A DNA stretch of 49,136 nt from Nitrosarchaeum sp. (GTDB lineage: Archaea; Thermoproteota; Nitrososphaeria; Nitrososphaerales; Nitrosopumilaceae). The translations under genes were made by a program, and so were the position numbers. Of this stretch, positions 3,325-49,136 are shown piece by piece; position 1 is the stretch's first letter, and each line of letters opens with the position of its first letter. The notes beneath the pieces were generated by a model. The model saw only the letters and a program-made list of their open reading frames with translations, was not told the DNA's origin and ran no database searches. Location of the stretch: assembly GCA_023265135.1 (NCBI GenBank), contig JAHFUM010000010.1, forward strand, positions 1 to 49,136, given 5' to 3'.

Positions 3325-3507
3325 TTAAATATATCCATCAGGTTCATCGTCATCATCATTAAGAATACTCATTATAAATCCGTGAGCTGTGTTTGTCAAA
3401 AAATACATAAAAACCATGACTAACCAATCTAAAAATCCTATTGGAGTAAAAACCAATAAAACCCACATAAAATAATAAACAACCCCCATCAATATAGTTG
3501 CTATCAT
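3325..3507 (-). CDS. Small two-helix membrane protein
   Basis: Of 60 residues, about 5-25 and 28-48 are strongly hydrophobic and probably cross the inner membrane. The C-terminus is short and acidic (NDDDDEPD). Its ATG overlaps the stop codon of queD, showing translational coupling. Function is unknown; small membrane proteins of this type are common in phage early regions. Confidence 0.7.
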   Translation of the reverse strand: MIATILMGVVYYFMWVLLVFTPIGFLDWLVMVFMYFLTNTAHGFIMSILNDDDDEPDGYI

Positions 3508-4049
3508 ACTTCATATCTACAATGAGATTTCTTTGTCTCCCAAAGTTCAACTGCTGATACTTCAGCAATACCGCTCATTTTTAGACTAGCATATCTATGT
3601 AGATGTTTACAAATATTTTCAGAAGTTGGACAAAAATCAACAACAGAAAAACTTTTAACATGCAAGATACGATCTTTACCAGTTAAATCGGGAACATAAT
3701 TATATAAGTTATAGAAATTTATAAATTTTTGTTTAAAATATGGATCGGTAATAACCTCCGGAACTATACTTGTTATAAGTTCAAAGTTTGGATCATTAAT
3801 ATCAATCATAAACTTATGATCTAATGACTCATCAATGAATTTTTTCATAAAATTCAAGTTCTTAAAATCTGTTAACATACTTGATTTATCTAATGTATTA
3901 GACTTCAAAAATACTTTTAATTCATAGCTATGACCATGCAAATGTTTACATGCACACTCAGTGCTTATACTTAGTTCAGGATTATTGAGCTCTTGCTGCC
4001 AAACTCTATGCCCCATTTCAAAATTAAAACTTTTATCAATTGTCCACAT
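3504..4049 (-). CDS. queD: 6-carboxy-tetrahydropterin synthase (QueD)
   Basis: QueD converts 7,8-dihydroneopterin triphosphate to 6-carboxytetrahydropterin, the step after FolE in 7-deazaguanine synthesis. The 181-residue protein shows the zinc ligands (His14 and HLHGH at 36-40), the nucleophilic Cys in CACKHLHGH, the SSMLTDF segment, LDHKF, and the PTSENI block with its catalytic Glu. It is longer than many bacterial QueD proteins because of an insertion before PTSEN. FolE, the DpdA-like transglycosylase and QueE are encoded elsewhere in the window. The product is therefore probably channelled into DNA modification rather than only tRNA queuosine. Confidence 0.93.
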   Translation of the reverse strand: MWTIDKSFNFEMGHRVWQQELNNPELSISTECACKHLHGHSYELKVFLKSNTLDKSSMLTDFKNLNFMKKFIDESLDHKFMIDINDPNFELITSIVPEVITDPYFKQKFINFYNLYNYVPDLTGKDRILHVKSFSVVDFCPTSENICKHLHRYASLKMSGIAEVSAVELWETKKSHCRYEV

Positions 4050-9359: not shown

Positions 9360-10430
9360 CTATTTTAAATTTAACAACATTGTGGTTGCAGAAAGATACT
9401 CACTTTTTAAGATTTTTTGTTGTTCCAATAAAGTTGATTGAACTTCTCTATTGTTATATTCATCCATCATTGTTGAAATTTTAGCTAATATCAGATCCTT
9501 GTATTGCAAATACAACTCAAATGATTCAGTCCATTTAGATGGATATTTAAACATTAAATCGTACATTTCACCATAAGAACATCTATTAGGGACTATTGGA
9601 ACACATCCCGCCATTGTTCCCTCCATTACAGAAATACCTAAATTTTCATGTAATGCACAACTAAAAATAATTTTTGATTTGGCCATTATTTCATAATATT
9701 CTTTTTTACCCAGATTCATTTTTTGAGTAATAACAACATTAAAATGTTTTGCTAAATCTTCTGCAATTTTCGGTTGCTTATCATCATTATAACGATGCGG
9801 CCACATTATAATATTTTCTTTTTTGACCTTTGGTAAATTTTCCATAAAGTCAATAATTAGTCCGTGCGGTTGTCCTGATCTGAATATTTTATCTTCGTAT
9901 CTTCCTCGTAAATCACCAAAAAGATTACGCATGAACATATTTAAGTGAAAAGTCGTCGCAAAGTAATTATAATCACATGCTAAAAACCATGCACGTTCTT
10001 GGTTACCAGCCCAATCATTACTCATCTTCATTCCTAAGATATCAGATGGATCATAATTTCCGGCGTGCCATATTCCATGTATTTTAACTGGAATATCCAA
10101 TAATTCGGACATATATCTAATAGAAGTTATAGCAAAATTCCATGCATCAGTTACAATGAAATTGTCACCAGGTTTAACTTCACCCGCTTGAAATAGCTCT
10201 GCAATTTTAATTATTTGCGATGCTTTATACGCATTGGTTGCACCAAAATCTAAAAATGCCCCCTTAGTTGTTTTATTAGGGATTGAAATTCCATCAATCG
10301 TCTCAACCAGATATTCAGTATTATCTTCCAGCCATCGAGGCAAGAAGTCGTACCATTGTTTAGTATATCTTTGATCTATAGGTTCAATGGGAACAATAAA
10401 AATTTTCTTAATATTCACAGATGCATCCAT
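9360..10430 (-). CDS. GT-B-type glycosyltransferase in the 7-deazaguanine block
   Basis: The start is set at ATG 10430 because GGAGG lies eight bases upstream; the frame continues further upstream without such a site. The 356-residue protein has a Rossmann-like N-terminal half (KIFIVPIEPI, later IHGIWHAGNYDP). Its C-terminal half has the donor-binding pattern of GT4-like enzymes (ENLGISVMEGTMAGCVPIV). It overlaps the end of the T-fold gene and lies two genes downstream of the DpdA-like gene. The setting suggests that it glycosylates the modified base or a precursor. Family members act on many acceptors, so the substrate is inference. Confidence 0.75.
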   Translation of the reverse strand: MDASVNIKKIFIVPIEPIDQRYTKQWYDFLPRWLEDNTEYLVETIDGISIPNKTTKGAFLDFGATNAYKASQIIKIAELFQAGEVKPGDNFIVTDAWNFAITSIRYMSELLDIPVKIHGIWHAGNYDPSDILGMKMSNDWAGNQERAWFLACDYNYFATTFHLNMFMRNLFGDLRGRYEDKIFRSGQPHGLIIDFMENLPKVKKENIIMWPHRYNDDKQPKIAEDLAKHFNVVITQKMNLGKKEYYEIMAKSKIIFSCALHENLGISVMEGTMAGCVPIVPNRCSYGEMYDLMFKYPSKWTESFELYLQYKDLILAKISTMMDEYNNREVQSTLLEQQKILKSEYLSATTMLLNLK

Positions 10431-10758
10431 TTTCACCATCCTCCGACACTTCAATAATAATTAAACGATTTTTATACTTCTTTAAAATTTGGGAATATAA
10501 ATCATCACAAATCATCTCGCAACTTTTATAATTTAAGTTCAAAAGTTTATCTTGATATAAACTTTCCAACCATCTTTTGAACTGAATAAACTCAATATCT
10601 CTATCAGCATGAAATACTTCAATTGAAACTTTGAAATGGAAAATATGTCTGTGAAGTTCACTTAGAAATGACACATCTTTTAATTTTGGATCTGTTGCAG
10701 CTTCGGGGTATCTATGCATGCCTTCTTTTTTAAAAGTAACCCATATCATAGTTTTCAT
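10408..10758 (-). CDS. QueD-like T-fold protein
   Basis: This 116-residue protein looks like a short T-fold enzyme: HRHIFHFKVSIEV (36-48) sits where QueD has HGHSYELKV, SCE (79-81) corresponds to the SEN block, and it ends in IEVSEDGENG (102-111), like the last QueD strand. The second zinc-type motif is HRH rather than HGH, and it lacks the catalytic Cys of true QueD. It is encoded between the DpdA-like protein and the glycosyltransferase. A role in forming or altering the deazaguanine base is likely but untested. Its stop overlaps the glycosyltransferase start. Confidence 0.65.
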   Translation of the reverse strand: MKTMIWVTFKKEGMHRYPEAATDPKLKDVSFLSELHRHIFHFKVSIEVFHADRDIEFIQFKRWLESLYQDKLLNLNYKSCEMICDDLYSQILKKYKNRLIIIEVSEDGENGCICEY

Positions 10759-10759
10759 A

Positions 10760-12037
10760 CTAAAAAAATTCCTCCAATGATGAATTTATATCTTCTACTG
10801 ATTTAGTCCTATTACTCTCCAAATATTTACCATAATTCAATTTCCAATATTTGAAGTCATCGAAATTCTTAACTTGTTCAAGTGTTCGGTAAAGACCTGC
10901 ATTCTTTTTCTTTGATTTACTAACAAAATTTGTATCACTCTTTACTTTATCAATCAAATTAAAGAGATTGTACACGGAAAACATACATGCTGCAAATCTT
11001 ATCTTATTTTGTTGTCTGCAGAATTCAGGATTAATATCCGGTTTTCCATACTTTTCATCTAACAATCCTTGACTGAATAAAAGTGCGTCATGAAATTCTT
11101 CTTCAGTAAATGTCTCGGATAGTTGTGAGTGTTGAAATGCATCGAACTTATTAAATACTTCCCAGTAAACATTATTTCTATGTCTACCAATCATTTTAAT
11201 AGATGCATCAATTTGGAATTGAGATCTAACTACCCCACCAGTATGTTTAGTTGAGTCATATGAAATAAGAGTATCATCAAACAAATGCTCTACTTTCATA
11301 AGAGTTTGAATTCTATTTGGTGAACCTACTCCAAGCAAATGGAAATGTTTAAGTAGATGTTTTGGTGCATTTAAATGTGAAAGTGTAAAGTATCGTTCAA
11401 GATCTTCAAGTTCACCATCACCAATACATGCACCACCCGATGCAATTCCTGCCAATTTATTTTGATAATCATCTGGTATATTATTTAAAATTTTATCAGT
11501 CCATTCTTGATAAGATTCTACACCGTTACCTTGAATAATCATAAAAGGTTTGCATTTAGAATTTAACTTATCAAAAATATCTATTTGCTTTATAATATTG
11601 ATTGCAGTTTGTTTTGCACACTCCGCAATCATACTTCTATCGAATTTTCTTGCATTAGACACAACATCAACCGCTTGTGATTTTCCAGTAACTCTTAAAG
11701 GAATCTCATCAAAGCACATTGCATGTGTTCCATACTTGGCCTGAACATTATATACTTTTTCACGTAGTTCATCATTTGGAGTTCTTCCTAGTGTAATCAT
11801 TTGAAGCCCACCAGAATCGACTTGAATTGAATTATTTGGAAAATACCTTTTATGATATTCAGCATCATCTGGTTCATTATAACCATTAAATAATACACCA
11901 AACTTGTGATAAGGAAACCAAGTATTTGCTTTTTGAGATGTATTATGAATAAACTTTAGATAATCTTCATTTTCACATCTCTGAACTGGCGAGGTGAAAA
12001 CAAATGAAAGTGCTGAAGCTATATATTCTAGCTTCAT
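10760..12037 (-). CDS. dpdA: DpdA-like DNA guanine transglycosylase
   Basis: Phage DpdA enzymes swap guanine in DNA for a 7-deazaguanine. The 425-residue protein has the TGT barrel motifs: QVDSGGLQM (72-80; Asp74 fits the general-acid Asp), FDEIPLR, IQGNGVESY, IASGG, LLGVGSPNRI (234-243) and SYDSTKHTGG (259-268; Asp261 in the nucleophile position). The zinc site of tRNA TGT is not obvious, as in other DpdA proteins. The last seven residues are SSLEEFF, identical to the end of the phage DNA polymerase (SSLEEFFG). That matches a sliding-clamp-binding tail and suggests action at the replication fork. Confidence 0.87.
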   Translation of the reverse strand: MKLEYIASALSFVFTSPVQRCENEDYLKFIHNTSQKANTWFPYHKFGVLFNGYNEPDDAEYHKRYFPNNSIQVDSGGLQMITLGRTPNDELREKVYNVQAKYGTHAMCFDEIPLRVTGKSQAVDVVSNARKFDRSMIAECAKQTAINIIKQIDIFDKLNSKCKPFMIIQGNGVESYQEWTDKILNNIPDDYQNKLAGIASGGACIGDGELEDLERYFTLSHLNAPKHLLKHFHLLGVGSPNRIQTLMKVEHLFDDTLISYDSTKHTGGVVRSQFQIDASIKMIGRHRNNVYWEVFNKFDAFQHSQLSETFTEEEFHDALLFSQGLLDEKYGKPDINPEFCRQQNKIRFAACMFSVYNLFNLIDKVKSDTNFVSKSKKKNAGLYRTLEQVKNFDDFKYWKLNYGKYLESNRTKSVEDINSSLEEFF

Positions 12038-12039
12038 TT

Positions 12040-12702
12040 TTAACCTCTCGCAATACTCATAAATTCTGCTCGTGTATCTGGACTCTTCATAAATTGACCG
12101 CCCAACTTATTTGTTACCGTACTCGAGTTAGCATCTTCCACACCACGACTACGAACACAATAATGCCTCGCATCAATATAAACTGCCACATCTTCTGTAT
12201 CTAGAATAAATGAAAGTGTATGCCAAATTTGATTGGTCAATCTCTCTTGAACCTGGGGCCGGCGAGAAAAGAAGTTCACAATTCTATTTAATTTGCTCAA
12301 ACCAAGAACTTTATTCTTTGGAATATACGCAACTGTTGCAACACCATCAATAGTTACGAAGTGGTGCTCACAATTAGACATAACTTTAATATTACGTTCA
12401 ACAACCATTCCGGCATCCATCTTATTTTCAATGGTTGTGCATTTTGGGAAATTTGAATAATCTAAACCTATGAAAAATTCATTGACGTACATTTTTGCAA
12501 CTCTGTCGGGAGTATCAATTAATGAATCATCTTCAAGATTCAGTTCAAGTGAAAACATTATATCACGTATTGAATTTGAAATAGATTTTATTTTTAGTTC
12601 GTTTGATATGTTAGGAACACCACAATGATTTAGAGGAGTTTCCATACCGATGGAAACTAGATATTCTCTTACTTCTAAACCTAACGTTTTATTTGATTTC
12701 AT
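12040..12702 (-). CDS. folE: GTP cyclohydrolase I (FolE)
   Basis: FolE opens GTP to 7,8-dihydroneopterin triphosphate, the first step towards preQ0-type bases. The 220-residue protein shows TPDRVAKMY, zinc ligands in SNCEHHF (Cys111, His114) and HYCVRSRG (Cys182), GLSKLNRIV and RRPQVQERL. All are signature blocks of the homodecameric type I enzyme. It lies 2 bp upstream of the dpdA-like gene, linking precursor synthesis directly to DNA modification. Confidence 0.95.
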   Translation of the reverse strand: MKSNKTLGLEVREYLVSIGMETPLNHCGVPNISNELKIKSISNSIRDIMFSLELNLEDDSLIDTPDRVAKMYVNEFFIGLDYSNFPKCTTIENKMDAGMVVERNIKVMSNCEHHFVTIDGVATVAYIPKNKVLGLSKLNRIVNFFSRRPQVQERLTNQIWHTLSFILDTEDVAVYIDARHYCVRSRGVEDANSSTVTNKLGGQFMKSPDTRAEFMSIARG

Positions 12703-15105: not shown

Positions 15106-15804
15106 ATGAATATTTATAAAGAATTTCAACCTACTTATCTTTATATCAAACAACACTTTATTACCGGTAAACGTTACTTCGGTAAAACTATTAAAAATCC
15201 TGAAATTTATAATGGTTCGGGAAAATATTGGAAAAATCATATAAAGAAACATGGTAAAGAACATATAGTAACGATTTGGTATTGCCTTTTCTATGATAAA
15301 GAGTCTATTACAGAATTTGCCTTAATGTGTTCTAATCAATGGAATATAGTTGAGTCCACCGCTTGGGCAAACCAAACTCCAGAAAACGGTTTAGGTGGAT
15401 GTAGTAAAGGCCATTTAAAAGGAGTTTTAGTTGGGAATAAAAACCCAAACTATAATAATAAATGGTCAGATAAACAACGGTTATCTGCATCAAAAAGACA
15501 AACTGGTAAAAATAAAGGTAAAACATATGAAGAAATGTATGGTGAAGATAAAGCAAAAGAGTTAAAAGAACAAAAAAGAATTAGATTATTAGGTAAGGAT
15601 AATTCTGGCAAAAATAATCCCAGAGCATTAAAAATAAAAGCAATTTCACCTGACGGTGTTGAATATTTAATAGAAGGAAATGTTGATACTTTTTGTAAGG
15701 AACATAAGTTGGGCGCAAGCAATGTACGCACTTCATATAACCACAATATACCCCATTATTTAGGGTGGAAATTTATAAAATTACCTAAACCCAACAGTTT
15801 GTAA
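15106..15804 (+). CDS. GIY-YIG homing endonuclease with NUMOD motifs
   Basis: The 232-residue protein begins with a GIY-YIG-like core (YLYIKQHFITGKRYFGKT, then YNGSGKYW). It continues into a NUMOD3-like DNA-contact segment (GNKNPNYNNKWSD) and a helix-turn-helix C-terminus (VDTFCKEHKL...). It is on the opposite strand to its neighbours, typical of a selfish free-standing homing gene. The gene at 28146-28861 is a close relative over the first 90 residues. AACGGAG precedes the ATG. Confidence 0.85.
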   Translation: MNIYKEFQPTYLYIKQHFITGKRYFGKTIKNPEIYNGSGKYWKNHIKKHGKEHIVTIWYCLFYDKESITEFALMCSNQWNIVESTAWANQTPENGLGGCSKGHLKGVLVGNKNPNYNNKWSDKQRLSASKRQTGKNKGKTYEEMYGEDKAKELKEQKRIRLLGKDNSGKNNPRALKIKAISPDGVEYLIEGNVDTFCKEHKLGASNVRTSYNHNIPHYLGWKFIKLPKPNSL

Positions 15805-19362: not shown

Positions 19363-20405
19363 TAGTCTTCACCAGTCAAATCCTGGATGGATGTCACAGC
19401 CAATTTGTACTTGTTTTTTACAAATTCTGAAAATGTTAGATCGGATAAAACTGACAACCAAAATTCTTTATTATTGGTGTCATCTTCACGATAATTTTTA
19501 CCTTCAATTTCACCAGTGCTTCTATCAACCTTAGCATACCATCCATTTTTTGGTTTGATAACGTGGCCGGACTCTAGCGCAAGATCTAGCAATCCTGAAT
19601 ATTTGTTTATACCATCATTAAATGATACTGAGAATGGCAGTTTACTTTTCTCTCTTACAAATCTAGATTTTTCAATATTGATTGTGAACTTATACCCTGT
19701 TATTTCAGTTCCATCTTTTTCTTGGGATTTTCCTATAATGAATGCTTGATTCGCTGAGTATATTAGCCCAGTTCCACCTGAAATTATTTGTCTTGGATAT
19801 AATGTCATTTCTTGATAAGTATGGCAAATTGCAATACATGGAATATCTTTATTTACTAATGAAGGGGTTATCATTCTTGTTAAACTTTTTAAACTTTTTG
19901 CACGTTGCATATCTGCAACCGTTTTTTCATTTTCTGCATCATCCAATTCTTTTAACGACGCGGTATTTCCGATTGAGTCGATAACGAATATTACCTTATC
20001 ACCTCTATCCAACCCTTTTAACTGTTTTACAATGTCAAACTTCAACATTTCAAGGTGTTCAATTGGTATATGAATTACTCTAGTTGGGTCAACCCCTTGA
20101 CTTTTAAGATATTCCGGTGTCATTCCACCTTCCGTATCGTACAATACACATACTGAATCTTTATATTTTTTAAAATATGCTCTAACACACACCAAAGATA
20201 ATAAAGATTTGAATGATTTTGATGGTCCTGCAAATAAAGTCAATCCTGAGGTTAAGCCACCGTCTAATGATCCACTAAATGCAACATTTATAATAGGCAC
20301 ATCAGTTGAAATTAAATCCTTTTCATTGAACAACGGAGATTGCGATAAAACTGATGCATATTTTGTTGTACTATTTTCTAATAATTTTTTCATTAAATTG
20401 TTCAT
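19362..20405 (-). CDS. uvsX: RecA-like recombinase UvsX
   Basis: UvsX forms filaments on ssDNA and drives strand exchange and recombination-dependent replication. The 347-residue protein has the T4-type Walker A AGPSKSFKS (59-67), VLYDTEGGMTP, Walker B KVIFVIDSIG, and an ISGGTG loop. It is slightly shorter than T4 UvsX (391). Confidence 0.95.
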   Translation of the reverse strand: MNNLMKKLLENSTTKYASVLSQSPLFNEKDLISTDVPIINVAFSGSLDGGLTSGLTLFAGPSKSFKSLLSLVCVRAYFKKYKDSVCVLYDTEGGMTPEYLKSQGVDPTRVIHIPIEHLEMLKFDIVKQLKGLDRGDKVIFVIDSIGNTASLKELDDAENEKTVADMQRAKSLKSLTRMITPSLVNKDIPCIAICHTYQEMTLYPRQIISGGTGLIYSANQAFIIGKSQEKDGTEITGYKFTINIEKSRFVREKSKLPFSVSFNDGINKYSGLLDLALESGHVIKPKNGWYAKVDRSTGEIEGKNYREDDTNNKEFWLSVLSDLTFSEFVKNKYKLAVTSIQDLTGED

Positions 20406-21004
20406 TTGATCTCCTTTTTATTATGACCCGCAATAGACATTATTTGTTTTAGTTTCTTTTCACTCATTAACATCCCTCTTACCCAATTTTGACCAGGAGA
20501 TTTATATGATTTTTTATTGATCTCCCCATTATTCCACCATAATCGTCTACCGACTTCAATGCCACCCACTCTTCCACCTTTTGATGCATTTTCTTTTTGT
20601 TTTTCCGGATTTGATTGCATCCATTCCTTTGTCGCACAGCCTCTCCTATTACCACTCCGTTTGAGGGCAATTTGACCATCAGTACCCCAATGTTCTTTAT
20701 TATATCCATATTCCGGTATAATATTTGCAAAATCTTTATTTTTATCAACTTCAAAAAAATTACTGAATATAAGACATATACTATTAAAAATAGTTATATC
20801 ATCTGATGTATATAAAAGAGTAGATATGATACTAGAGGGATATTTATTTAATAAATATTTCCATCTGATGCCAGAACCAGTATAATCGTTCCAATTGGTT
20901 CTTTTGGTCACACAAAGATAACTTATGCCAGTTTCAAAATGCTGTTTTAACATAAGTTTATATAGAAATACTGGATCTCCAGTATTATACAGAGGTAATT
21001 TCAT
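20402..21004 (-). CDS. Putative GIY-YIG-type homing endonuclease, divergent
   Basis: The 200-residue protein opens with YKLMLKQHFETGISYLCVT, aligning with YIKQHFITGKRYFGKT of the plus-strand homing gene, then YTGSGIRW. The catalytic GIY/YIG loop is eroded (YLCV), so activity may be lost. The C-terminus (WWNNGEINKKSYKSPGQNWV) is the DNA-contact end common in phage homing proteins. It sits between uvsX and the HD-domain gene and overlaps the uvsX start by 4 bp. Confidence 0.7.
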   Translation of the reverse strand: MKLPLYNTGDPVFLYKLMLKQHFETGISYLCVTKRTNWNDYTGSGIRWKYLLNKYPSSIISTLLYTSDDITIFNSICLIFSNFFEVDKNKDFANIIPEYGYNKEHWGTDGQIALKRSGNRRGCATKEWMQSNPEKQKENASKGGRVGGIEVGRRLWWNNGEINKKSYKSPGQNWVRGMLMSEKKLKQIMSIAGHNKKEIK

Positions 21005-21069: not shown

Positions 21070-21684
21070 TCAATTATATCCATAACGATTAATTGAAAGA
21101 TGGTTCTTAGGTTTTCTTAATACATCTGACCAGATACTTGTGTATCTATCCAAAAATAATTGCTCCGCAGCCTTTGGTGATAATGGAACAATATCTTGAT
21201 GTTTGGGTTTAGGAATTCCATTAAAACAAGTCCATTTAAAATTATTGGAATCTGCTGGAATTAATACTTCACGTTCTAACATCAAAGCTTGCAGATCTGC
21301 AATTTTAACAACTGGATCTAATACCATATTCAAATGAAACTTATTACTTATTACTCTTTCTACATCACTTTCAATTTTCTTAAAATCTGGAAGTAATTGT
21401 TTTAATGGAGTTGGCACGTCACCCAAATATGCCTCAGCATCATCATGGTGAAGAGCTTGCCATTGTAAATTAGGGTCAGGCGCAACTAAGTTGTTAACTA
21501 AGTTGCTAACTAAAACTGAGTGTTGGGCAACTGAATAAAATTCTTTACAATGTCCACCAAATCTGGAAGTATTAGATAATGCATGGGCAATATCTTCAAT
21601 ACTAATATCGTCGATGCAAGGTTTTAGAAAATTAAAATATTTTCCTGTATAAGTCATAATAACGGGCATCATAATAGGCATCAT
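21070..21684 (-). CDS. HD-domain phosphohydrolase (YfbR-like)
   Basis: The 204-residue protein has HD-superfamily residues in order: H in FGGHCKEFYSVAQHS, HHDDAEAYLGD (the HD pair), and a late Asp (KIADLQALMLERE). The pattern PLKQLLPDF after the HD block is shared with YfbR-type nucleotidases. In a phage nucleotide-metabolism region it may dephosphorylate dNMPs. Its N-terminus starts with MMPIMM and the true start could be the internal MTYTGKYF near 21657. It overlaps the polymerase stop. Confidence 0.85.
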   Translation of the reverse strand: MMPIMMPVIMTYTGKYFNFLKPCIDDISIEDIAHALSNTSRFGGHCKEFYSVAQHSVLVSNLVNNLVAPDPNLQWQALHHDDAEAYLGDVPTPLKQLLPDFKKIESDVERVISNKFHLNMVLDPVVKIADLQALMLEREVLIPADSNNFKWTCFNGIPKPKHQDIVPLSPKAAEQLFLDRYTSIWSDVLRKPKNHLSINRYGYN

Positions 21685-24191
21685 CCGAAAAATTCCTCCA
21701 AACTTGATTGCACTTCACACTGCCATCCTGCACAATCTGTTAATGATTTAAGTGGATCCGAAAAAGTTTTAGTGAATTGTAAATCATAATCAATATACTT
21801 TTCAAGTTTTAATTCTTTTGGAATTCCTAAACTTGTTGGAAATGCAAATACATTTTCTTTTATAGGATTTGGCATTTTAAGATAAATAAACTTTATTTTA
21901 TCTCCGTTTTGAATTGATGCTAGTTTACCTTTTGTATGATAATTATACAATAAAGACCCCCTAACATGAATTGGGCAACCCTTTTTATATACTACATTAC
22001 TACCCCTCCACTTGTCAATATCAGAAACTCCTCTTGGAAATGCAATATCAGATGCATTAAGATCGACAAACTCAGATTTTATTCTACTAAACCAATCTTG
22101 AAATTCTATTTCCCCTGTTTCAAAAATCATTTTCAATCCTTCTTTTAGTTTGGCCCTACACCAGTGAGGAGTCGATGATCTAACAATTTCTATCCCCATA
22201 ACCTTTAATTTTGGAGGATTATATGCAATACCTTCCGAGTTATGAACATATAACGCATAGTTCTTTTTACCTCTAAACAAGCCACGGGATGCAATTGCCT
22301 CGCGTTTATTCTTCATCACTTTTTGGTAACAGTTCATCTTTTCAAAAACATCGTCAATTGATTCTTGAATTACTTTTTGACAAACTATTTCACCCAATTG
22401 ATCTAGAGCATTAACAATTGACTCATTAGATAATGTTTTACCTGAATTTGTTAATTCATCAACAATAGGTTGGCAATTCAAATAGATAGAATCTGTATCA
22501 CCATACATAACATAGTCAACATCTTTAGTTTTTAACATTCTATTAAATCTTGAATTCATTGCATTGGCTAAATGAATATCTGAAAATTGACCTGTTAAAG
22601 TGATTGCCGCCGCCATTCTCCAATCATAGTAATGGAACCCACTATTACCAATAGCACCATAAACGGAATTTGCTAGAATTTTAAGAGCCATTTGTTTATT
22701 ATTAAGGGCAGATACTCTAGGCAATAATGATTTATTTTTAGTTTTCTGATATTCATCCTCCAACTTCAACATCTCAGATTTTGCAATTTTGCGACCTTCC
22801 ATGCAAAATTCCATTAATTCTGCTAGAAATCCTTGTTTCTCCTTCCTATACATTGTTCCATTTGCTGCAATAGTTCTATTATATTTTATTGAATCGCTAT
22901 GAGCATTCAAAACTTTTTCACTCATATCTAACCAATCTTTAACTCCAATATCATACTCAATTGGTACAAACGTTTCAGGTGAAATATTCCATTGACGAAT
23001 AATACTTGGATATAGAGAAGCGTAATCAAATGACATTAACCAACCATACATTCCAGGTTTTGGTTCCTTAACCCATGCGCCAGGATATTCATTATCTAGT
23101 TTCGACGTTCTTGGTGGCACTGCAATTTTTGACTTTGACAAATGATTGTAAATATAAACTTCCCAAGGCAATACTGTTTTATAAACATCTTGCAAATTAC
23201 ATCTACATTGATACGCGATAGAGAAAACTAACTCAATCAACTTCATCTTATCATTTAATTCTTTAACTAAGAGAGTATCGACTGCGTTATAAGAGACGAA
23301 AGTTTGAAAATGATGATCGTATGAGTCCTTAAATGATTCCCCTGGTAATTCAATTTTTGTTTTACCAAGTTCTTCTTGTGCAATAAAACCCAATGCGTAT
23401 GATTCTTTTGCAGAATATGTAAATTTTTTATAACATTCCAGGTAGTCCAAATCCACAATACCATAAATGTCATAGGTTTGAACTTCTCTACCACGAATCT
23501 CGATTGTTTTTTCTCTTATATAACCAAATGGTGATAATTGTTTAACCATTGCATCATCAAACAATCTTGAAATCCTATTAACCATATATGGTATATCGAA
23601 ATGTGAAGTATTCCAGCCAGTCCAGATATCCGGAGCTTTAGACTTGTTATATGCAATAAAATATTGCAATAAAGCTTTTTCAGATTCAAACTTCTTATAC
23701 TCAAAATTATCTTCCGGTTGAGAAATATAATCTTTCAAACCTAATACAAGAGTTACATTTTCTAATGTATTATGAAGTGAAATAAGTGTTATAGGAGAGG
23801 ATGCGGACTGAATATCAGGAAAAGAACCATCTTCTGATATGACTTCTATGTCAATGATAAGAATTGATACCTTTGAAACGTCATACTCAATTTCATCAGG
23901 AAATTCTTCATTAATCAGTTGATATTGCCAGCGAGGAAATCCATGAATAGAAAACCCCTGAACATCCTTATACTGCTCAGTAAAATCTCGTGCTTCTTTT
24001 ATTGAATCAAATTTTATAGGTTCAAGGGGGTCATCATTATATAGAGAATGCCAAGAATTTTCAGAGTGAGTCTTAGCGGGAACAAATAGTGTCGGTTTGA
24101 ATGGAATACGTTCAGTTATTCTTTTTCCATTATTATATCCTCTATATAGGATATTATTTCCACTAACATTGCAATAGGTATAAAATATCAT
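21681..24191 (-). CDS. 43: Family B DNA polymerase (T4 gp43 type)
   Basis: The 836-residue replicative polymerase has an N-terminal 3'-5' exonuclease (IIDIEVISED, WTGWNTSHFDIPYM) and the palm motifs DYASLYPSII, KILANSVYGAIGN and YGDTDSIYLN. KLKVMGIEIVRSSTPHW is also present. The C-terminus SSLEEFFG is a clamp-binding-type peptide, as in T4-like polymerases that bind the gp45 clamp. The same peptide ends the DpdA-like protein. It is shorter than T4 gp43 (898). It overlaps the dNMP kinase stop by 4 bp. Confidence 0.97.
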   Translation of the reverse strand: MIFYTYCNVSGNNILYRGYNNGKRITERIPFKPTLFVPAKTHSENSWHSLYNDDPLEPIKFDSIKEARDFTEQYKDVQGFSIHGFPRWQYQLINEEFPDEIEYDVSKVSILIIDIEVISEDGSFPDIQSASSPITLISLHNTLENVTLVLGLKDYISQPEDNFEYKKFESEKALLQYFIAYNKSKAPDIWTGWNTSHFDIPYMVNRISRLFDDAMVKQLSPFGYIREKTIEIRGREVQTYDIYGIVDLDYLECYKKFTYSAKESYALGFIAQEELGKTKIELPGESFKDSYDHHFQTFVSYNAVDTLLVKELNDKMKLIELVFSIAYQCRCNLQDVYKTVLPWEVYIYNHLSKSKIAVPPRTSKLDNEYPGAWVKEPKPGMYGWLMSFDYASLYPSIIRQWNISPETFVPIEYDIGVKDWLDMSEKVLNAHSDSIKYNRTIAANGTMYRKEKQGFLAELMEFCMEGRKIAKSEMLKLEDEYQKTKNKSLLPRVSALNNKQMALKILANSVYGAIGNSGFHYYDWRMAAAITLTGQFSDIHLANAMNSRFNRMLKTKDVDYVMYGDTDSIYLNCQPIVDELTNSGKTLSNESIVNALDQLGEIVCQKVIQESIDDVFEKMNCYQKVMKNKREAIASRGLFRGKKNYALYVHNSEGIAYNPPKLKVMGIEIVRSSTPHWCRAKLKEGLKMIFETGEIEFQDWFSRIKSEFVDLNASDIAFPRGVSDIDKWRGSNVVYKKGCPIHVRGSLLYNYHTKGKLASIQNGDKIKFIYLKMPNPIKENVFAFPTSLGIPKELKLEKYIDYDLQFTKTFSDPLKSLTDCAGWQCEVQSSLEEFFG

Positions 24192-35631: not shown

Positions 35632-38418
35632 TCATATATTAATCTCACATGCGCCGCCCGAACATGAGACCTCTCCCTTTAGGTTTGTATTATCTTCTAT
35701 TTCTACAATTTTGGTTAAGTCGATTGCATGTAACTGTTTGACCATTTCATTATAATGTTCTTTTGTACAATCCTCAAAAGGAGGTTGTTTATAAGAACCA
35801 CCATCATAGGGAAGAACACTAATTCCAGTATAAAATTCTCGATTTTTCCACATCCAGCGGCCTGCCCTGTACCACTCATTATTTTTAAGTGAAATTGTAC
35901 AACTTACATTGTGATAATTTGCACCTTCTCTATGACCATTTTGAATCCATTCTATATTGAATCTTTTAACGCGTTCTAACAGATTAGAAAAGGATTCAGT
36001 TCTCAGAATAGCACCATCTGGGGCTTTTTGTGGGAAACTTACAATTGCTTCCAAGTGAGGTTTATAGTAACAATCTTCAACTAAATCAGGCAACTCAGCT
36101 TTAATATAATTATAAAGAGGTTCATTTTTTCCTACACGCATTCGACGGATATAATAATCATTATGCCATGCATGAATACCCGATGATGTACCAAGAACAA
36201 GCGATGTGGTACCAGAAGGTTTAACCGTAGTAGTTCTTGCGGCCTTATTTATTCCGATTATTTGTGCTAATTTTTCATTTGTCTCTAATACTACTTTAGC
36301 AGCCTCCTTCAAATCTAGTTTCAATACGGCACCTGATGCAATTCCAGTCATACCAATACCTAGCAATGCATCACGTTCTGCATTTTCTTTCCATATATTA
36401 CGTAGATAATGAAAATTTGTATATCCTGCTTGAAGTGTGCCTAGGAACGCCGCTGCGGATACTCTTTCATTCAAATCCTGTTGATCTGCAACATCGGATA
36501 CATTAACTTCAGTCAAATTACAGAACGAACAACTAGGTAAAGAAATTTCTGCACAAGGGTTTGTAAGTAATTCATAATCATTAGTCCAAAATATACCAGG
36601 TTCGCCTGCATTTGATGCTTGAACTCTTTCCCATACATCAGCAAACTCATCTTCATTAGTATCATTACGATGAAGAACAATTGAGTTATTTGCCCTTCCA
36701 CGTTGAGGGTTTAACTCCCACCAATTTCCAGATTTGCAAGTAAGTAAATCCATATCATCTTTACTAAAAAGACTAATCATTGCTGCTCTACGAATTCCAC
36801 CACTTAATACAGCATCTGCAATATAACATAATATATCATGAACTTCCAGTGATGTTAATTTACGTCCAACCGCATCATTTAATTTTGATCGTATATGTTC
36901 TAGACAAATACGAAGTGGATCGGGACCAGGCGCCTTTCCACCAGAAGTTACTAATCTAGCACCTTTTTTGCGGATGTCTCTAAAATCAAATACCGGATCT
37001 GATTTATTATGAAAAAATGCTTCTACAAGAATCTTAATAGAATCGGCCCACCCTTCAATAGAGTCACCAATTAAAAATCTTCGAGTTCTTTCAATGGGAC
37101 CTTTTATAAGTGGAAGTTTATCAATATGATGAGATTGAACACTATAACCAACACCACTCCCGCCTAAAAGCAAAAACATAATTTCACTAAATGCATCTGG
37201 ATGATCTATAGCGATAGCAGAGCAGTTGCCAGTTACAATACCCCCAGATAAGATAAATGAGTGATTATCCTCAACCTCCAAACACCAAACTTCCTCTTCT
37301 CTATCTGTCTCAGTAACTGATTGAACTCTCCATAATGAATTTCTATGATTGTTTATGCTATGTTTTATACCAAATCTTTTAGTATAAGGTCTAGTACCAA
37401 AATTAGTAACTTGCCCTGTTAAGTCGTCCTCACTTAAGATATATAATCCTGCTAGTTCAAAACAATTTTTTATAAAATTGATATATTTTTCTCCGGTGGC
37501 TTGGATTCCGATATACTTAGAGCAATTTCCATTTTTATACCAATTAGGATTTTTACCTGCGTCCGCACTGCAATATCCATCTACAAATGCTCGGATTAAT
37601 TCATAATTATCTTCTATAGGATTTGGTGCGGTTTTCAAATATTTACCAGTATATGCAATAAAATCACCATTACATGACAAAGGTGCAGATGTTGAAAATC
37701 CCATTTCTTCAAATCTGGTCTTATATTTCGATTCTTTTTCCCCACATAATCTAACCATCGAATGTTTTAACTCACCATTTTTATCTTGTACACATGTCCC
37801 ATCACCAAAAACATAACCATAACACCAATATAATTTTTCAAAGGGTGTTGCACATTCATAATCAAATTCAGAAAATAAATCGGGAGCTTTACATATAAAA
37901 TCACCAGATTTTATATTAGTTGTGGCTGTACCATTATCTAAAATCCATCTGTGATTTTCGGTTGCGTAAATTTCTCTAACTTTATGTCCCATTTTCATTA
38001 CAATTTTAAACAACTTTTGAGATCCATAAGATCTAACTATTGCAGGTTTCCATTCTCCAGTATGAGTTGGAACTATAACAGTGTCACCATTATTAAAATC
38101 ATTGAATGATTTAGTTCCAATTGATGTAATAAATTTAGTATCACTGCTCAAACAGTTAAACATGCGGTTATTAGACAATTCTATTGAGGCCCCTGCAAAT
38201 TGAAGACTTCTCATAGAAGGTAACACCTTCTTTGTCAAAATAAAGTTTTTATAAATGTTCTGAATTTCTGTTTTAACTTGAGGATATTTGTGAATATGCA
38301 TCTGCATATTACGTTGGCAAATTTCTTCCCATGTTTCTCTGCGATTTAGTTCTGGAATGAATTTTGCGTATTTGTTAAAAATTACAATTTCACTCAAAAT
38401 ATTTTGAGATGTTGGCAT
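35632..38418 (-). CDS. nrdJ: Class II ribonucleotide reductase (NrdJ) containing an intein
   Basis: The 928-residue precursor makes dNTPs from NTPs by an adenosylcobalamin radical mechanism, without a separate small subunit. Reductase blocks include MRSLQFAG, GGSGVGYSVQ, NPCAEISLPS, TTTVKPSGTTS and the C-terminal redox SCSGGACEI. An intein of about 310 residues interrupts it at FN|C (residue 89) and ends at TGN (398). Removing it gives about 618 residues. A reliance on host B12 is implied. A late-promoter-like TATAAATA lies 33 bp upstream. Confidence 0.92.
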   Translation of the reverse strand: MPTSQNILSEIVIFNKYAKFIPELNRRETWEEICQRNMQMHIHKYPQVKTEIQNIYKNFILTKKVLPSMRSLQFAGASIELSNNRMFNCLSSDTKFITSIGTKSFNDFNNGDTVIVPTHTGEWKPAIVRSYGSQKLFKIVMKMGHKVREIYATENHRWILDNGTATTNIKSGDFICKAPDLFSEFDYECATPFEKLYWCYGYVFGDGTCVQDKNGELKHSMVRLCGEKESKYKTRFEEMGFSTSAPLSCNGDFIAYTGKYLKTAPNPIEDNYELIRAFVDGYCSADAGKNPNWYKNGNCSKYIGIQATGEKYINFIKNCFELAGLYILSEDDLTGQVTNFGTRPYTKRFGIKHSINNHRNSLWRVQSVTETDREEEVWCLEVEDNHSFILSGGIVTGNCSAIAIDHPDAFSEIMFLLLGGSGVGYSVQSHHIDKLPLIKGPIERTRRFLIGDSIEGWADSIKILVEAFFHNKSDPVFDFRDIRKKGARLVTSGGKAPGPDPLRICLEHIRSKLNDAVGRKLTSLEVHDILCYIADAVLSGGIRRAAMISLFSKDDMDLLTCKSGNWWELNPQRGRANNSIVLHRNDTNEDEFADVWERVQASNAGEPGIFWTNDYELLTNPCAEISLPSCSFCNLTEVNVSDVADQQDLNERVSAAAFLGTLQAGYTNFHYLRNIWKENAERDALLGIGMTGIASGAVLKLDLKEAAKVVLETNEKLAQIIGINKAARTTTVKPSGTTSLVLGTSSGIHAWHNDYYIRRMRVGKNEPLYNYIKAELPDLVEDCYYKPHLEAIVSFPQKAPDGAILRTESFSNLLERVKRFNIEWIQNGHREGANYHNVSCTISLKNNEWYRAGRWMWKNREFYTGISVLPYDGGSYKQPPFEDCTKEHYNEMVKQLHAIDLTKIVEIEDNTNLKGEVSCSGGACEINI
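37225..38154 (-). mobile_element. Intein with LAGLIDADG-like domain in NrdJ
   Basis: Splicing blocks: Cys1 (CLSSDTKF), a TxxH block in ATENHRWI, VWCLEVEDNHSFIL and the final TGN before Cys+1. The middle includes WCYGYVFGDGT and LIRAFVDGY, the two helices of a LAGLIDADG endonuclease. The penultimate residue is Gly instead of the usual His, which may slow Asn cyclisation. The insertion is next to a conserved reductase Cys segment. Confidence 0.9.
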
Positions 38419-43694: not shown

Positions 43695-44150
43695 TTAATT
43701 GTAATTTTCCCAGGGAAATCTAAGCCAACGTTCATCTTGTTTTCTAGATATAGTATTTGCCCAAAAATTGATATTAATAGGACAATCTATATTGTACCAC
43801 ATAGCAGCATACTTCATGCTGTTACAATCGAATGAACGTTCTTTTAATTGTTCCAATGTTACACCCGAATCAATAATATCTTCGACAACTAGAACTTTTT
43901 TATTATTTGCTACTGCACAAATTAAATCCCATTTTTTAGTTTCTTTGTTACAGGAATTGCGATTAGACCATTCTACGAATCTAACATCAGGAACATTCAA
44001 AGAATGACTTAAACAAATCGCTGGAACTGCACCGCCTCGAACAATACCAACAATAACTTCCGGAACCCAAGAAACTGATCGTAATTTTTGAGAAATATTT
44101 TGAATATCTAAATCAAATTGTTCCCATGTATATTTTATATAATCACACAT
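43695..44150 (-). CDS. Phosphoribosyltransferase
   Basis: The PRPP loop VLVVEDIIDSGVT (86-98) and the early VGIVRGGAVPA define a type I PRTase of 151 residues. Close homologues salvage purine bases such as xanthine, guanine or hypoxanthine. It overlaps the QueE stop by 8 bp. This coupling suggests it might act on a deazapurine base or free a competing guanine. Substrate is not visible. Confidence 0.85.
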   Translation of the reverse strand: MCDYIKYTWEQFDLDIQNISQKLRSVSWVPEVIVGIVRGGAVPAICLSHSLNVPDVRFVEWSNRNSCNKETKKWDLICAVANNKKVLVVEDIIDSGVTLEQLKERSFDCNSMKYAAMWYNIDCPININFWANTISRKQDERWLRFPWENYN

Positions 44151-45021
44151 CTATCGCATTTCCTAAGTTAAGACAGTGTAGTCTACCAGAAATATGATAT
44201 CCTTCATTGATAGCTCGTTTTGTTATCTCTTCAATTTCTTTAATGTTTGTTTGCTGATCACGGGTACTTCCAACTGGCATAATAAAGATTGGTGGCATAT
44301 AATCAGGATGATCTAAAACGTCTACTAACTTTTGTAAATGCATCTCAAGTTCATTCCAGGATTCATCCCTATTATTAATAACAACTTTTAAAGTTGTATA
44401 ATTACTGCGATAACCATAACTAGCAATTGCCTTATAATTCCAAGCATATTTTTCACCAGAAACATTGAATAACTTTGGTGATATATTAAACATTGTTCTG
44501 AATGAACATGCATCTAATATTGATCCGAAAGTTCGACTAATATCTGTTGTGCCATTTGTTTCTATTTGAACTGTTTGTGGTGTATAACCAAATGGCTCTT
44601 TATTTAATAGTGTAAATAAGTTACCCAATTCATTTTGCTGCAATAGAGGTTCACCGCCCGTTATACATAGATCAATATCATTACCTGTTTTTGGATGAAT
44701 AAATTTACCATCTGGCAAATAACTGATAACTTCTTTAATAGCATCTTCGACTTTCATATCTCTTCTGAGATGTTTGAATCTTGGATCTATTGCATACAGC
44801 GTATCACAACCATATTCAATGACAGGAAAATCATCTAAAGTTTTAATATCAACAGGATTAATGTTAATTGGGATATAAGTCGATTTATCAGTCGGATTTT
44901 GCTGGGAAAAACCCGGGCAACGAAGATTGCAACCAAACAAGCGCAACCATACTGCTAAGTTACCAGTCCTTGCACCTTCACCCTGAAAACTATAAAATAT
45001 CTGTGAAACGTGTAATGTCAT
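44143..45021 (-). CDS. queE: 7-carboxy-7-deazaguanine synthase (QueE)
   Basis: QueE is a radical SAM enzyme converting 6-carboxytetrahydropterin to 7-carboxy-7-deazaguanine. The 292-residue protein has FQGEGARTG, GCNLRCPGF and a third cluster Cys far away at CDTLY (Cys72), then TGGEPLLQ. The 36-residue gap between second and third Cys is unusual compared with CxxxCxxC and recalls other phage QueE proteins. It ends the chain FolE, QueD, QueE towards DNA modification. QueC is not seen in the window. Confidence 0.93.
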   Translation of the reverse strand: MTLHVSQIFYSFQGEGARTGNLAVWLRLFGCNLRCPGFSQQNPTDKSTYIPININPVDIKTLDDFPVIEYGCDTLYAIDPRFKHLRRDMKVEDAIKEVISYLPDGKFIHPKTGNDIDLCITGGEPLLQQNELGNLFTLLNKEPFGYTPQTVQIETNGTTDISRTFGSILDACSFRTMFNISPKLFNVSGEKYAWNYKAIASYGYRSNYTTLKVVINNRDESWNELEMHLQKLVDVLDHPDYMPPIFIMPVGSTRDQQTNIKEIEEITKRAINEGYHISGRLHCLNLGNAIDV

Positions 45022-46800: not shown

Positions 46801-47556
46801 TTACTTCCACTCTATAGATGGACTAATTAATATACTTGTTAGAAACGCCACACGATTAATTTCCTTATCAGCGCAGAAATAATCTTTGTAAGAATATTCC
46901 CCTAATAAAAGTATCATATCAGGAATAGACTTAGAAATCAACTTTTCTGACGCATAATCATAAAACATCCTAAATAAGTGAGTCGAATCTATATCAGAAT
47001 GTTCACTAACCCATTTACGCATATCACCAAACTTTTTGTTCTTTAGTGATGTGATTAATTGATTAAATGACTCATCGGATAAATTGAGTAAAACACTAGC
47101 ATCAATCTTACCGCCTGCGGCATATCCCTGAAGTTCATTCAACACAGAACGAAAATCTGGAAACTTTTTCATAATAAGTTCCGCTACAGGTTTCTTTTCA
47201 TAATCAACACCCTCTTTATCAAGAATAAAGAATACTCTTTTAAGAAACTGTGCCGCAATATTTGTTTTTTCATCTCTGTTAATTTTAAAATCTATAACCT
47301 TGCAACGACTACGAATAGGGTCAATTATTTTTGCGGCGAAATTAGCTGTCAGAATTACACTGTGATTTTTTGAAAATTCTTCAATAAATCCACGAAGTGC
47401 TTGTTGCCCTTGAGCTGACATCCCATCACAATTATGTGTTAACACTGGCTGAGCGCCAATAAAAAAACAATTATTTTTAGGAACATGCAAATCATATACA
47501 TGATGAGTTGATTCAACTCTTTTAATTGACTTTATCCGTAACAAAGTATGATCCAT
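46801..47556 (-). CDS. 44: Clamp loader gp44, C-terminal half with intein-C
   Basis: The first 42 residues (VYDLHVPKNNCFFIG, then VLTHN) are the C-terminal part of a split intein, with its own start codon and AAGGGG. After Cys+1 the clamp loader continues: CDGMSAQGQQALRGFIEEF, ILTANFAAKIIDPIRSRC (sensor 1 and SRC). It must be joined in trans to the N-terminal half encoded upstream. The HEG gene lies between and overlaps this start by 35 bp. Confidence 0.92.
   Translation of the reverse strand: MDHTLLRIKSIKRVESTHHVYDLHVPKNNCFFIGAQPVLTHNCDGMSAQGQQALRGFIEEFSKNHSVILTANFAAKIIDPIRSRCKVIDFKINRDEKTNIAAQFLKRVFFILDKEGVDYEKKPVAELIMKKFPDFRSVLNELQGYAAGGKIDASVLLNLSDESFNQLITSLKNKKFGDMRKWVSEHSDIDSTHLFRMFYDYASEKLISKSIPDMILLLGEYSYKDYFCADKEINRVAFLTSILISPSIEWK
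47431..47556 (-). mobile_element. Split intein, C-terminal part
   Basis: A 42-residue segment ending in the canonical His-Asn and followed by Cys. VYDLHVPKNNCFFIG is intein block F. Its length is typical for split intein C fragments. Confidence 0.9.
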
Positions 47557-48571
47557 TTTTAATCCCCTTTTTCAATTTTTTTAATTGTAACACATTTTCC
47601 CCAATGAATAAAAATTCATCAATATAATCTAGAATATTATCTTCATTTAACCATATAAATTTTATATTATTTTTCAAACAATATGATATAATCTGCTGCA
47701 ATTTCGCATTGCTTTGAAGCCATTGAGATTTTGGTTTTAGTTCATATAAAATATTATTTACATTATCGAAAAAATCTGCAATATATGTTCGCTCAACTTG
47801 TTTTTGACAATCAAAATAAGGAATTCTCAATTTTTCAAATAACAAGTGCTGATTGCAAAAATAAAAACATGCTTCCCATGAACTTCTGAATTTTTTTATC
47901 TCCCCAGAGTTTAATAAAATTTTTGCATCCCAATGAGTAAAGGAATTTGTTATAGGAGGAGTATAATTCCCCAATGCAATCTTTTCTCTCATTAATTTAG
48001 AGTTACGATTCGCATTTTTTCTAATATTATCTTTACCTTTATCAGTTTTATTGAATTCCTTCATTTTAACTGAGTTATGTTTTCCTAAATTTTTATATAA
48101 TTCTTCACCTATTTTTGTTTTTGCAAACAATTTTAAAGAATTTGATGTTTTGTTATATTGAACTAAGCGATCTTCAATTGACTTCATTTTATGAATCCAT
48201 GGTCTGGATTTATAACATTCAACACAAAATTTATTATATTTTTTAGTTTTTAAATTAAATTCTGTCTCACATTTGCAATAATTACAAATATTACAATTTA
48301 TATCATCAAGTAACAATAACTCTTTTATTAATAGTACTTGTTGATATTCAAATAAATGTCTAGATATGTCCCATTTAAATCCAGATTTTGAAACAATATT
48401 TCTACTAAATAACCCCTTCAAGACATTTGAAGATTTATCATTTTTATACAAAGTAATAATATTAGATATTTCATCAATAGTTAAAACAGTTCTTTTTAAC
48501 CTAGATCCTCCAAGTTTTTTAAGTTTAGCATTTGTACTACGTAAGTCACGAAGTTGTTGAGATATTGTCAT
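47522..48571 (-). CDS. Vsr/PD-(D/E)XK-type homing endonuclease between intein halves
   Basis: The 349-residue protein has a four-Cys zinc module (CNYCKCE ... CVEC) in its middle and a C-terminal nuclease fold (YIADFF, then ILYELKPKSQW, and IKFIWLNEDN), a D...ExK signature. Free-standing genes of this kind inside split inteins have been described as fractured-gene arrangements. It overlaps both intein halves' coding ends. It likely spreads the split intein by cutting intein-less gp44. Confidence 0.85.
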   Translation of the reverse strand: MTISQQLRDLRSTNAKLKKLGGSRLKRTVLTIDEISNIITLYKNDKSSNVLKGLFSRNIVSKSGFKWDISRHLFEYQQVLLIKELLLLDDINCNICNYCKCETEFNLKTKKYNKFCVECYKSRPWIHKMKSIEDRLVQYNKTSNSLKLFAKTKIGEELYKNLGKHNSVKMKEFNKTDKGKDNIRKNANRNSKLMREKIALGNYTPPITNSFTHWDAKILLNSGEIKKFRSSWEACFYFCNQHLLFEKLRIPYFDCQKQVERTYIADFFDNVNNILYELKPKSQWLQSNAKLQQIISYCLKNNIKFIWLNEDNILDYIDEFLFIGENVLQLKKLKKGIKNGSYFVTDKVN

Positions 48572-48884
48572 TAATCATTCCATCTGTAATAATCATATTA
48601 TATTTATATAATTCAGATGTATCAACAACAATAGTTTTCGAGTTTTCTTCAACAAACCATTTATGCTCTGGGGTGCAGATTATTTTTTCACCATTTTCAA
48701 ATTCTATCTCATAGCAATCATCCCGCAACCCTTTATCCATTAGATAAAATGGCACCCATTCAATTTTACCTGTTTTGATATCTAAAGATCTAACCAAATC
48801 AGTTGCATCATTCAAATTGGAAATTTTATCAGTGCATACTATACCATCCCGAATGATGTGTACTATTGTGGATTCGTCTAAACA
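48546..48884 (-). mobile_element. Split intein, N-terminal part
   Basis: 112 residues from Cys1 to the stop, including blocks A (CLDEST) and B (TPEHKW). No endonuclease domain is fused; the nuclease is a separate gene. Together with the 42-residue C part it makes a full-size intein. Confidence 0.9.
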
Positions 48885-49136
48885 TTCATCAAGAACTGTT
48901 ATTTTCTTTGCATCTGAAAATGAAACAGTTGAAGCAAACTGAACTAACTTAGTACGAATAAGATCAACATTACCTTCACTTGATGCATTCACGAATAAAA
49001 TATCCGCCCCCATTTCATTTGCAATTGCTCGGGCGACAGTCGTTTTTCCGCAGCCAGCGGAACCTGTAAAAAGGAATGATGGAACATTTCCACTCTTTAT
49101 AAGACCTTTTATTTGGTTTTTAGTGGATTCGGGAAG
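48546..49136 (-). CDS. 44: Clamp loader gp44, N-terminal half with intein-N (partial)
   Basis: The gene runs beyond the window. Upstream of ATG 49013 the frame stays open to the window edge with Walker A TGSAGCGKTT. Walker B follows as ITVLDE. Directly after the Glu the intein begins (CLDESTIVHII), with TPEHKWF as block B. The host protein is cut right after its Walker B Glu, so without splicing neither half can be an active ATPase. Confidence 0.92.
   Translation of the reverse strand, partial: LPESTKNQIKGLIKSGNVPSFLFTGSAGCGKTTVARAIANEMGADILFVNASSEGNVDLIRTKLVQFASTVSFSDAKKITVLDECLDESTIVHIIRDGIVCTDKISNLNDATDLVRSLDIKTGKIEWVPFYLMDKGLRDDCYEIEFENGEKIICTPEHKWFVEENSKTIVVDTSELYKYNMIITDGMINDNISTTS

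Follow-up and report, generated by a model that had tools for sequence, protein, structure and literature searches.

A DpdA2-type enzyme of a T4-like phage quite probably exchanges guanine for a 7-deazaguanine in DNA while its C-terminal SSLEEFF tail is bound, on the gp45 sliding clamp, at the site used by the tail of the phage DNA polymerase. This reading comes from comparison of sequences and predicted structures, centered on a stretch of 49,136 nucleotides (hereafter, the window; contig C17 in a 1.8 Mb assembly). The first-pass annotation had pointed out that the DpdA-like protein and the polymerase share a seven-residue segment at their ends. Inspection of both ORFs confirmed this identity, with the endings INSSLEEFF (DpdA) and VQSSLEEFFG (polymerase), in which the extra terminal G of the polymerase sets the common SSLEEFF one residue out of register. 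The accompanying proposal that this tail binds the clamp stood up on sequence (i.e., tail conservation and specificity, likeness to the polymerase tail, occurrence of gp45, and tails on glycosyltransferases) but did not extend to the KVP40/nt-1 clade, where the tail is absent.

The phage and its 7-deazaguanine genes

The end of the window and the start of a second contig (C3, 104 kb) have 120 identical bases in common. C3 carries the gp45 clamp and ORFs resembling T4-like structural genes, and the two contigs add up to ~153 kb, related phages being ~156 to 160 kb long. The phage is T4-like, and its polymerase is nearest to those of cyanophages (43.7% identity). The features relevant to the tail and to base synthesis are as follows.

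3504..4049, minus strand: QueD-like 6-carboxytetrahydropterin synthase (Pfam PTPS, 7e-27)
9360..10454, minus strand: glycosyltransferase-like cassette protein, 364 aa, without tail (weak Pfam GT1 match, 6e-4)
10408..10758, minus strand: 116-aa cassette protein, phrog_17812, directly downstream of dpdA
10760..12037, minus strand: dpdA2-like gene for a putative DNA guanine transglycosylase, 425 aa, phrog_10773 (homology, fold)
10763..10783, minus strand: codons of the DpdA tail SSLEEFF (putative clamp-binding peptide; GGAGGA inside)
12040..12702, minus strand: FolE (GTP cyclohydrolase I), directly upstream of dpdA (Pfam, 1.7e-58)
21681..24191, minus strand: family-B DNA polymerase, gp43-like, 836 aa, ending QSSLEEFFG (Pfam DNA_pol_B, 1.9e-34)
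21687..21710, minus strand: codons of the polymerase PIP box QSSLEEFF
44143..45021, minus strand: QueE-like radical SAM enzyme (phrog_2076, 1e-46)
46801..49136, minus strand: clamp loader gp44, intein-interrupted, running past the contig end
G000:C3:590-1249, minus strand: gp45 sliding clamp, just beyond gp44 (RB69 gp45 match, E 2.8e-22)

The 116-aa phrog_17812 protein is kept near dpdA in a 70-kb relative (G001), ACP17, and BUCT-ZZ01. The apparently split gp44 has its N-terminal part fused to an intein-like N-half and its C-terminal part to an intein-like C-half, with a separate ORF of 349 aa between them, an arrangement reminiscent of fractured genes that encode split inteins. A ribonucleotide reductase-like ORF (35632-38418) contains an apparent in-frame intein, and the ORFs at 1832-2323, 15106-15804, and 20402-21004 resemble homing endonucleases or other mobile elements.

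The 425-aa DpdA-like protein had no Pfam match, and PHROGs gave only a family of unknown function. Its homologue in Vibrio phage nt-1, which we take to be DpdA2, matched with E 4e-37 over residues 3 to 285, and a joint alignment yielded 27% full-length identity to it, with the DSGGLQ and YDS (YDST/YDSS) segments and D261 invariant or conserved. A profile search against PDB sequences returned nothing useful, so we turned to fold comparison. The best Foldseek matches of the predicted structure were TGTs (Zymomonas mobilis TGT, 6e-9) and the bacterial DpdA 7ui4 (9e-7). DpdA2 was defined in phage nt-1 (PMC6884629), whose protein has full-length homology, DSGGLQ and YDST/YDSS, and neighboring 7-deazaguanine genes in common with the window protein; in contrast, the clamp-like tail of the window protein is absent from the nt-1 and KVP40 proteins. 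Homology to nt-1, the TGT/DpdA fold of the model, and the 7-deazaguanine pathway genes encoding FolE, QueD, and QueE together place the 425-aa protein with the DpdA2-type transglycosylases, with a predicted activity of base insertion into DNA. No QueC was noticed among the window ORFs, and the exchanged base is thus likely to be 7-carboxy-7-deazaguanine or a derivative. Campylobacter phage CP220, which belongs to a group with heavy guanine replacement, gave no match to the DpdA2 profile, a negative that carries no weight.

Conservation and specificity of the C-terminal tail

The polymerase ending QSSLEEFF is a textbook PIP box (consensus QxxLxxFF; PMC3012046), and NSSLEEFF of DpdA departs from it only in having N in place of Q, in line with a PIP-like or T4-type C-terminal motif (Qxxhxxaa or SLDFLF-like). 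The AlphaFold model consists of a folded TGT-like body and a disordered tail (pLDDT <50 at residues 420 to 425), which is attached, according to the alignment, by a variable, gapped linker. Most of the linker positions 412 to 419 are among the poorest conserved, and L421 and F425 rank 55th and 63rd in conservation among the 425 positions (after 70% clustering). From composition, an exact match between the polymerase tail and any other of the ~196 ORF models is expected ~1.5e-6 times, a figure that is too favorable, since the codons of each tail double as a Shine-Dalgarno site for a downstream gene that overlaps.

Conservation among homologues, the check proposed by the first-pass annotation, is more telling, and the tail proved to be conserved. 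We collected 64 distinct homologues from phage records, IMG/VR, and one MAG contig, mostly 28 to 37% identical to the window protein, and an LxxΦF C-terminal end (counted with up to six further residues after the motif) was present in 54 of them. After clustering at 70% identity, 19 of the 25 clusters, window protein included, keep the tail. An Anaerolineae MAG provided the single homologue from a scan of genome contigs (tail TLDDFFE), and one clade (L082 and L087) has a longer DpdA end that finishes in TLELF. The tail is degenerate in pf16-type DpdAs and some IMG/VR types, and it is missing from DpdA2 of the KVP40/nt-1 group, whose polymerase does have it. This loss shows that the tail is dispensable for some DpdA2 proteins.

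Specificity was assessed with a tighter pattern ([STN]L[DE]x[LFM]F plus at most two further residues) on 1507 non-overlapping ORF models, which are models rather than curated genes, from seven genomes: the window plus C3, G001, BUCT-ZZ01, Moby, ACP17, X1, and pf16. The pattern occurred 13 times, i.e., in seven polymerases, five DpdAs, and one glycosyltransferase, against a composition-based expectation of 0.07 in total. Conservation and specificity of the tail rule out a chance match. Nor do we favor a transfer of the polymerase tail to dpdA by gene conversion, as homologues use different tail codons.

The type of tail agrees between DpdA and polymerase within a phage. Among phages with both tails known, the pairs were FF/FF in 3 (with FL of G001 assigned by its first residue, F) and LF/LF in 13 (Fisher p 0.0018, which is too small given that the phages are related). 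Both tails are atypical in one further genome, G004 (polymerase VLLDFG, DpdA SLELEF). A gp26-like ending that keeps FF whatever the polymerase tail is served as negative control. It belongs to a gp26-like baseplate hub protein, which in C3 (G000:C3:89322-90008) ends CxxC...GLEGFF; endings of the form GL(E/D/Q)xFF were also found in its counterparts from BUCT-ZZ01, Moby, ACP17, X1, pf16, and G001. This ending is possibly a structural motif or a partner site, and its existence means that such an ending alone proves nothing. A gp45 query identified the clamp in G001, BUCT-ZZ01, Moby, ACP17, and pf16. The pocket described for the RB69 clamp (PMC3012046) is partly kept in the gp45 of the window phage, with Ile107 and Phe109 retained and Tyr39 replaced by Met.

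Tails of this kind also occur on glycosyltransferases of the cassette. In BUCT-ZZ01, the glycosyltransferase with the tight tail is encoded directly upstream of dpdA, and at ~30 IMG/VR loci a GT-B glycosyltransferase (assigned by a Foldseek match to GT-B enzymes, 6e-11) precedes dpdA and ends in (S/T/N)LESLF or close to it. At other loci, the same slot is taken by a non-homologous 300-aa glycosyltransferase-like protein, and the seven of these read to the end finish in SSLESLFL. GT-B relatives in X1 and L210 were not found beside dpdA and are tail-less. At two loci, L109 (1622-2995) and L216 (3001-3903), non-homologous glycosyltransferases occupy the slot upstream of dpdA with nearly the same tail codons, so the 300-aa protein may have inherited its tail at a recombination junction instead of acquiring it independently.

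Alternative readings of the tail

It is unlikely that the tail is a structural part of DpdA, such as a dimer contact or an active-site cap, or a site for another partner. TGT enzymes are dimers, and gp26-like proteins end in GLEDFF or similar without a known replication role, both of which count for such a function; however, the linker is variable and gapped, model confidence at the tail is low, and unrelated glycosyltransferases carry the same tail. The gp26 ending itself differs from that of DpdA in that it follows a zinc-ribbon-like strand, retains FF regardless of the polymerase, and has G instead of S/T before L.

Binding to the host β clamp, instead of or besides phage gp45, appears very improbable. 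What speaks for it is the resemblance of LEDLF/LDELF to the bacterial β-clamp pentapeptide. Against it, the tail resembles the polymerase tail of each phage, all five genomes queried encode gp45, and the same tail recurs across phages of very different hosts.

We give as little credence to the view that tRNA is the main substrate of the enzyme, even if its tail binds the clamp, or that the tail affects modification negligibly. The authors of the Menderavirus study named the gene a queuine tRNA-ribosyltransferase and discussed tRNA (PMC9025141), and the contact of T4 α-glucosyltransferase with gp45 has little effect on the share of glucosylation (PMC13216743). Yet a tRNA enzyme has no obvious use for a clamp tail, and the family includes DpdA2 of nt-1, a phage whose DNA holds dPreQ0 (PMC6884629).

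The least credible explanation attributes the tail to translational coupling alone: the next gene overlaps, and the Shine-Dalgarno site (GAGGA/GGAGG) and AT-rich spacer that serve it would be translated as LEE(L/F)F. The tails of dpdA (10760-10783) and the polymerase (21681-21707) are alike in 17 of 21 bases, including TTGGAGGAATTTTT, which is closely followed by a start codon in both; GGAGGA in the tail codons constitutes a Shine-Dalgarno-like site for the next gene, whose start coincides with or adjoins the stop codon. A Shine-Dalgarno-like 4-mer also lies in the tail codons of 43 of 53 tailed homologues, most of them with an ATGA overlap. However, only two of 155 coupled ORFs with a Shine-Dalgarno site near the end (seven genomes) finish in LxxΦF, namely the window polymerase and DpdA, and the tail lacks any such 4-mer in 10 of the 53 homologues; among the 10, BUCT-ZZ01, Moby, and X1 are also devoid of a downstream start. 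Homologues and polymerases use all six Leu codons for the tail L and both Phe codons for F, and the glycosyltransferase tails (LESLF) have no Shine-Dalgarno site inside. The coupled-ORF count and the tails devoid of such sites largely refute this explanation, which we rejected as the source of the motif, although we do ascribe part of the nucleotide identity to it: the site present in both window tails is a second reason for EE and for part of the exact match.

Proposed clamp tethering and known systems

In the mechanism that we favor, i.e., tethering of DpdA to gp45, FolE, QueD, and QueE would make a 7-deazaguanine base, for which DpdA would exchange guanine in DNA. The disordered SSLEEFF peptide on its variable linker would dock at the same gp45 site as the polymerase tail, and the tether would then let the enzyme exchange bases processively on freshly replicated phage DNA. 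In relatives with a tailed glycosyltransferase, base insertion and a further sugar step could take place on one shared clamp. For a large group of T4-like phages, we tentatively extend this to a clamp-borne hypermodification assembly, in which DpdA and glycosyltransferases would act in sequence on one gp45 ring trailing the fork, a proposal that we rate somewhat short of an even chance. In the relative nt-1, with a tail-less DpdA2, ~0.16% of G is modified (sum of the values in PMC6884629), which we count in support of the tether, although nt-1 may differ otherwise.

T4 gp43, gp55, and gp33 bind gp45 by interchangeable C-terminal peptides, and the clamp epitope of gp55, exchangeable with that of gp43, follows a divergent linker (PMC2988020). 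The end of gp43 is ASLDFLFG, and SLDFLYE occurs close to the C-terminus of gp55. DpdA shares with these proteins the short hydrophobic-acidic C-terminal peptide, and its linker anatomy is as in gp55; the T4 proteins are, however, a polymerase and transcription factors, whereas here the carrier is a base-modifying enzyme. T4 α-glucosyltransferase was reportedly found bound to gp45 by Sommer in 2004. This binding was confirmed in a study in which the gp45 interaction was not the main determinant of α-glucosylation (PMC13216743), a result that we count against a strong tether effect. Both α-glucosyltransferase and DpdA are phage DNA-modifying enzymes, the former gp45-bound and the latter presumably so, judging from its tail, but they differ in chemistry and in the base concerned. 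The T4 enzyme was discarded as a positive control for the tail, since it has no such C-terminal extension. DNMT1 is likewise a DNA-modifying enzyme brought to new DNA by a PCNA-binding motif (PMC9690074); recruitment by a clamp motif is alike, whereas DNMT1 is a cellular methyltransferase, and enzyme and clamp are unrelated to those of the phage.

Our survey of the open-licence literature found no report of a clamp-tethered DpdA, in agreement with the first-pass annotation. A clamp-bound phage modification enzyme is a known idea, from T4 α-glucosyltransferase, and the proposed clamp-tethered deazaguanine cassette would be of that kind. Tethering offers a testable mechanism by which a transglycosylase whose substrate is finished DNA could act on large numbers of guanines during a single infection, and a possible way to confine modification to replicating phage DNA. 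It argues that the annotated tRNA-ribosyltransferases of these phages act on DNA and suggests clamp recruitment as a general principle of phage DNA modification, for which KVP40 and nt-1 are natural tail-less controls. Finally, a phosphoribosyltransferase-like gene (43695-44150) adjoins queE and is present too in G001 and BUCT-ZZ01; its product might salvage the guanine released by DpdA.
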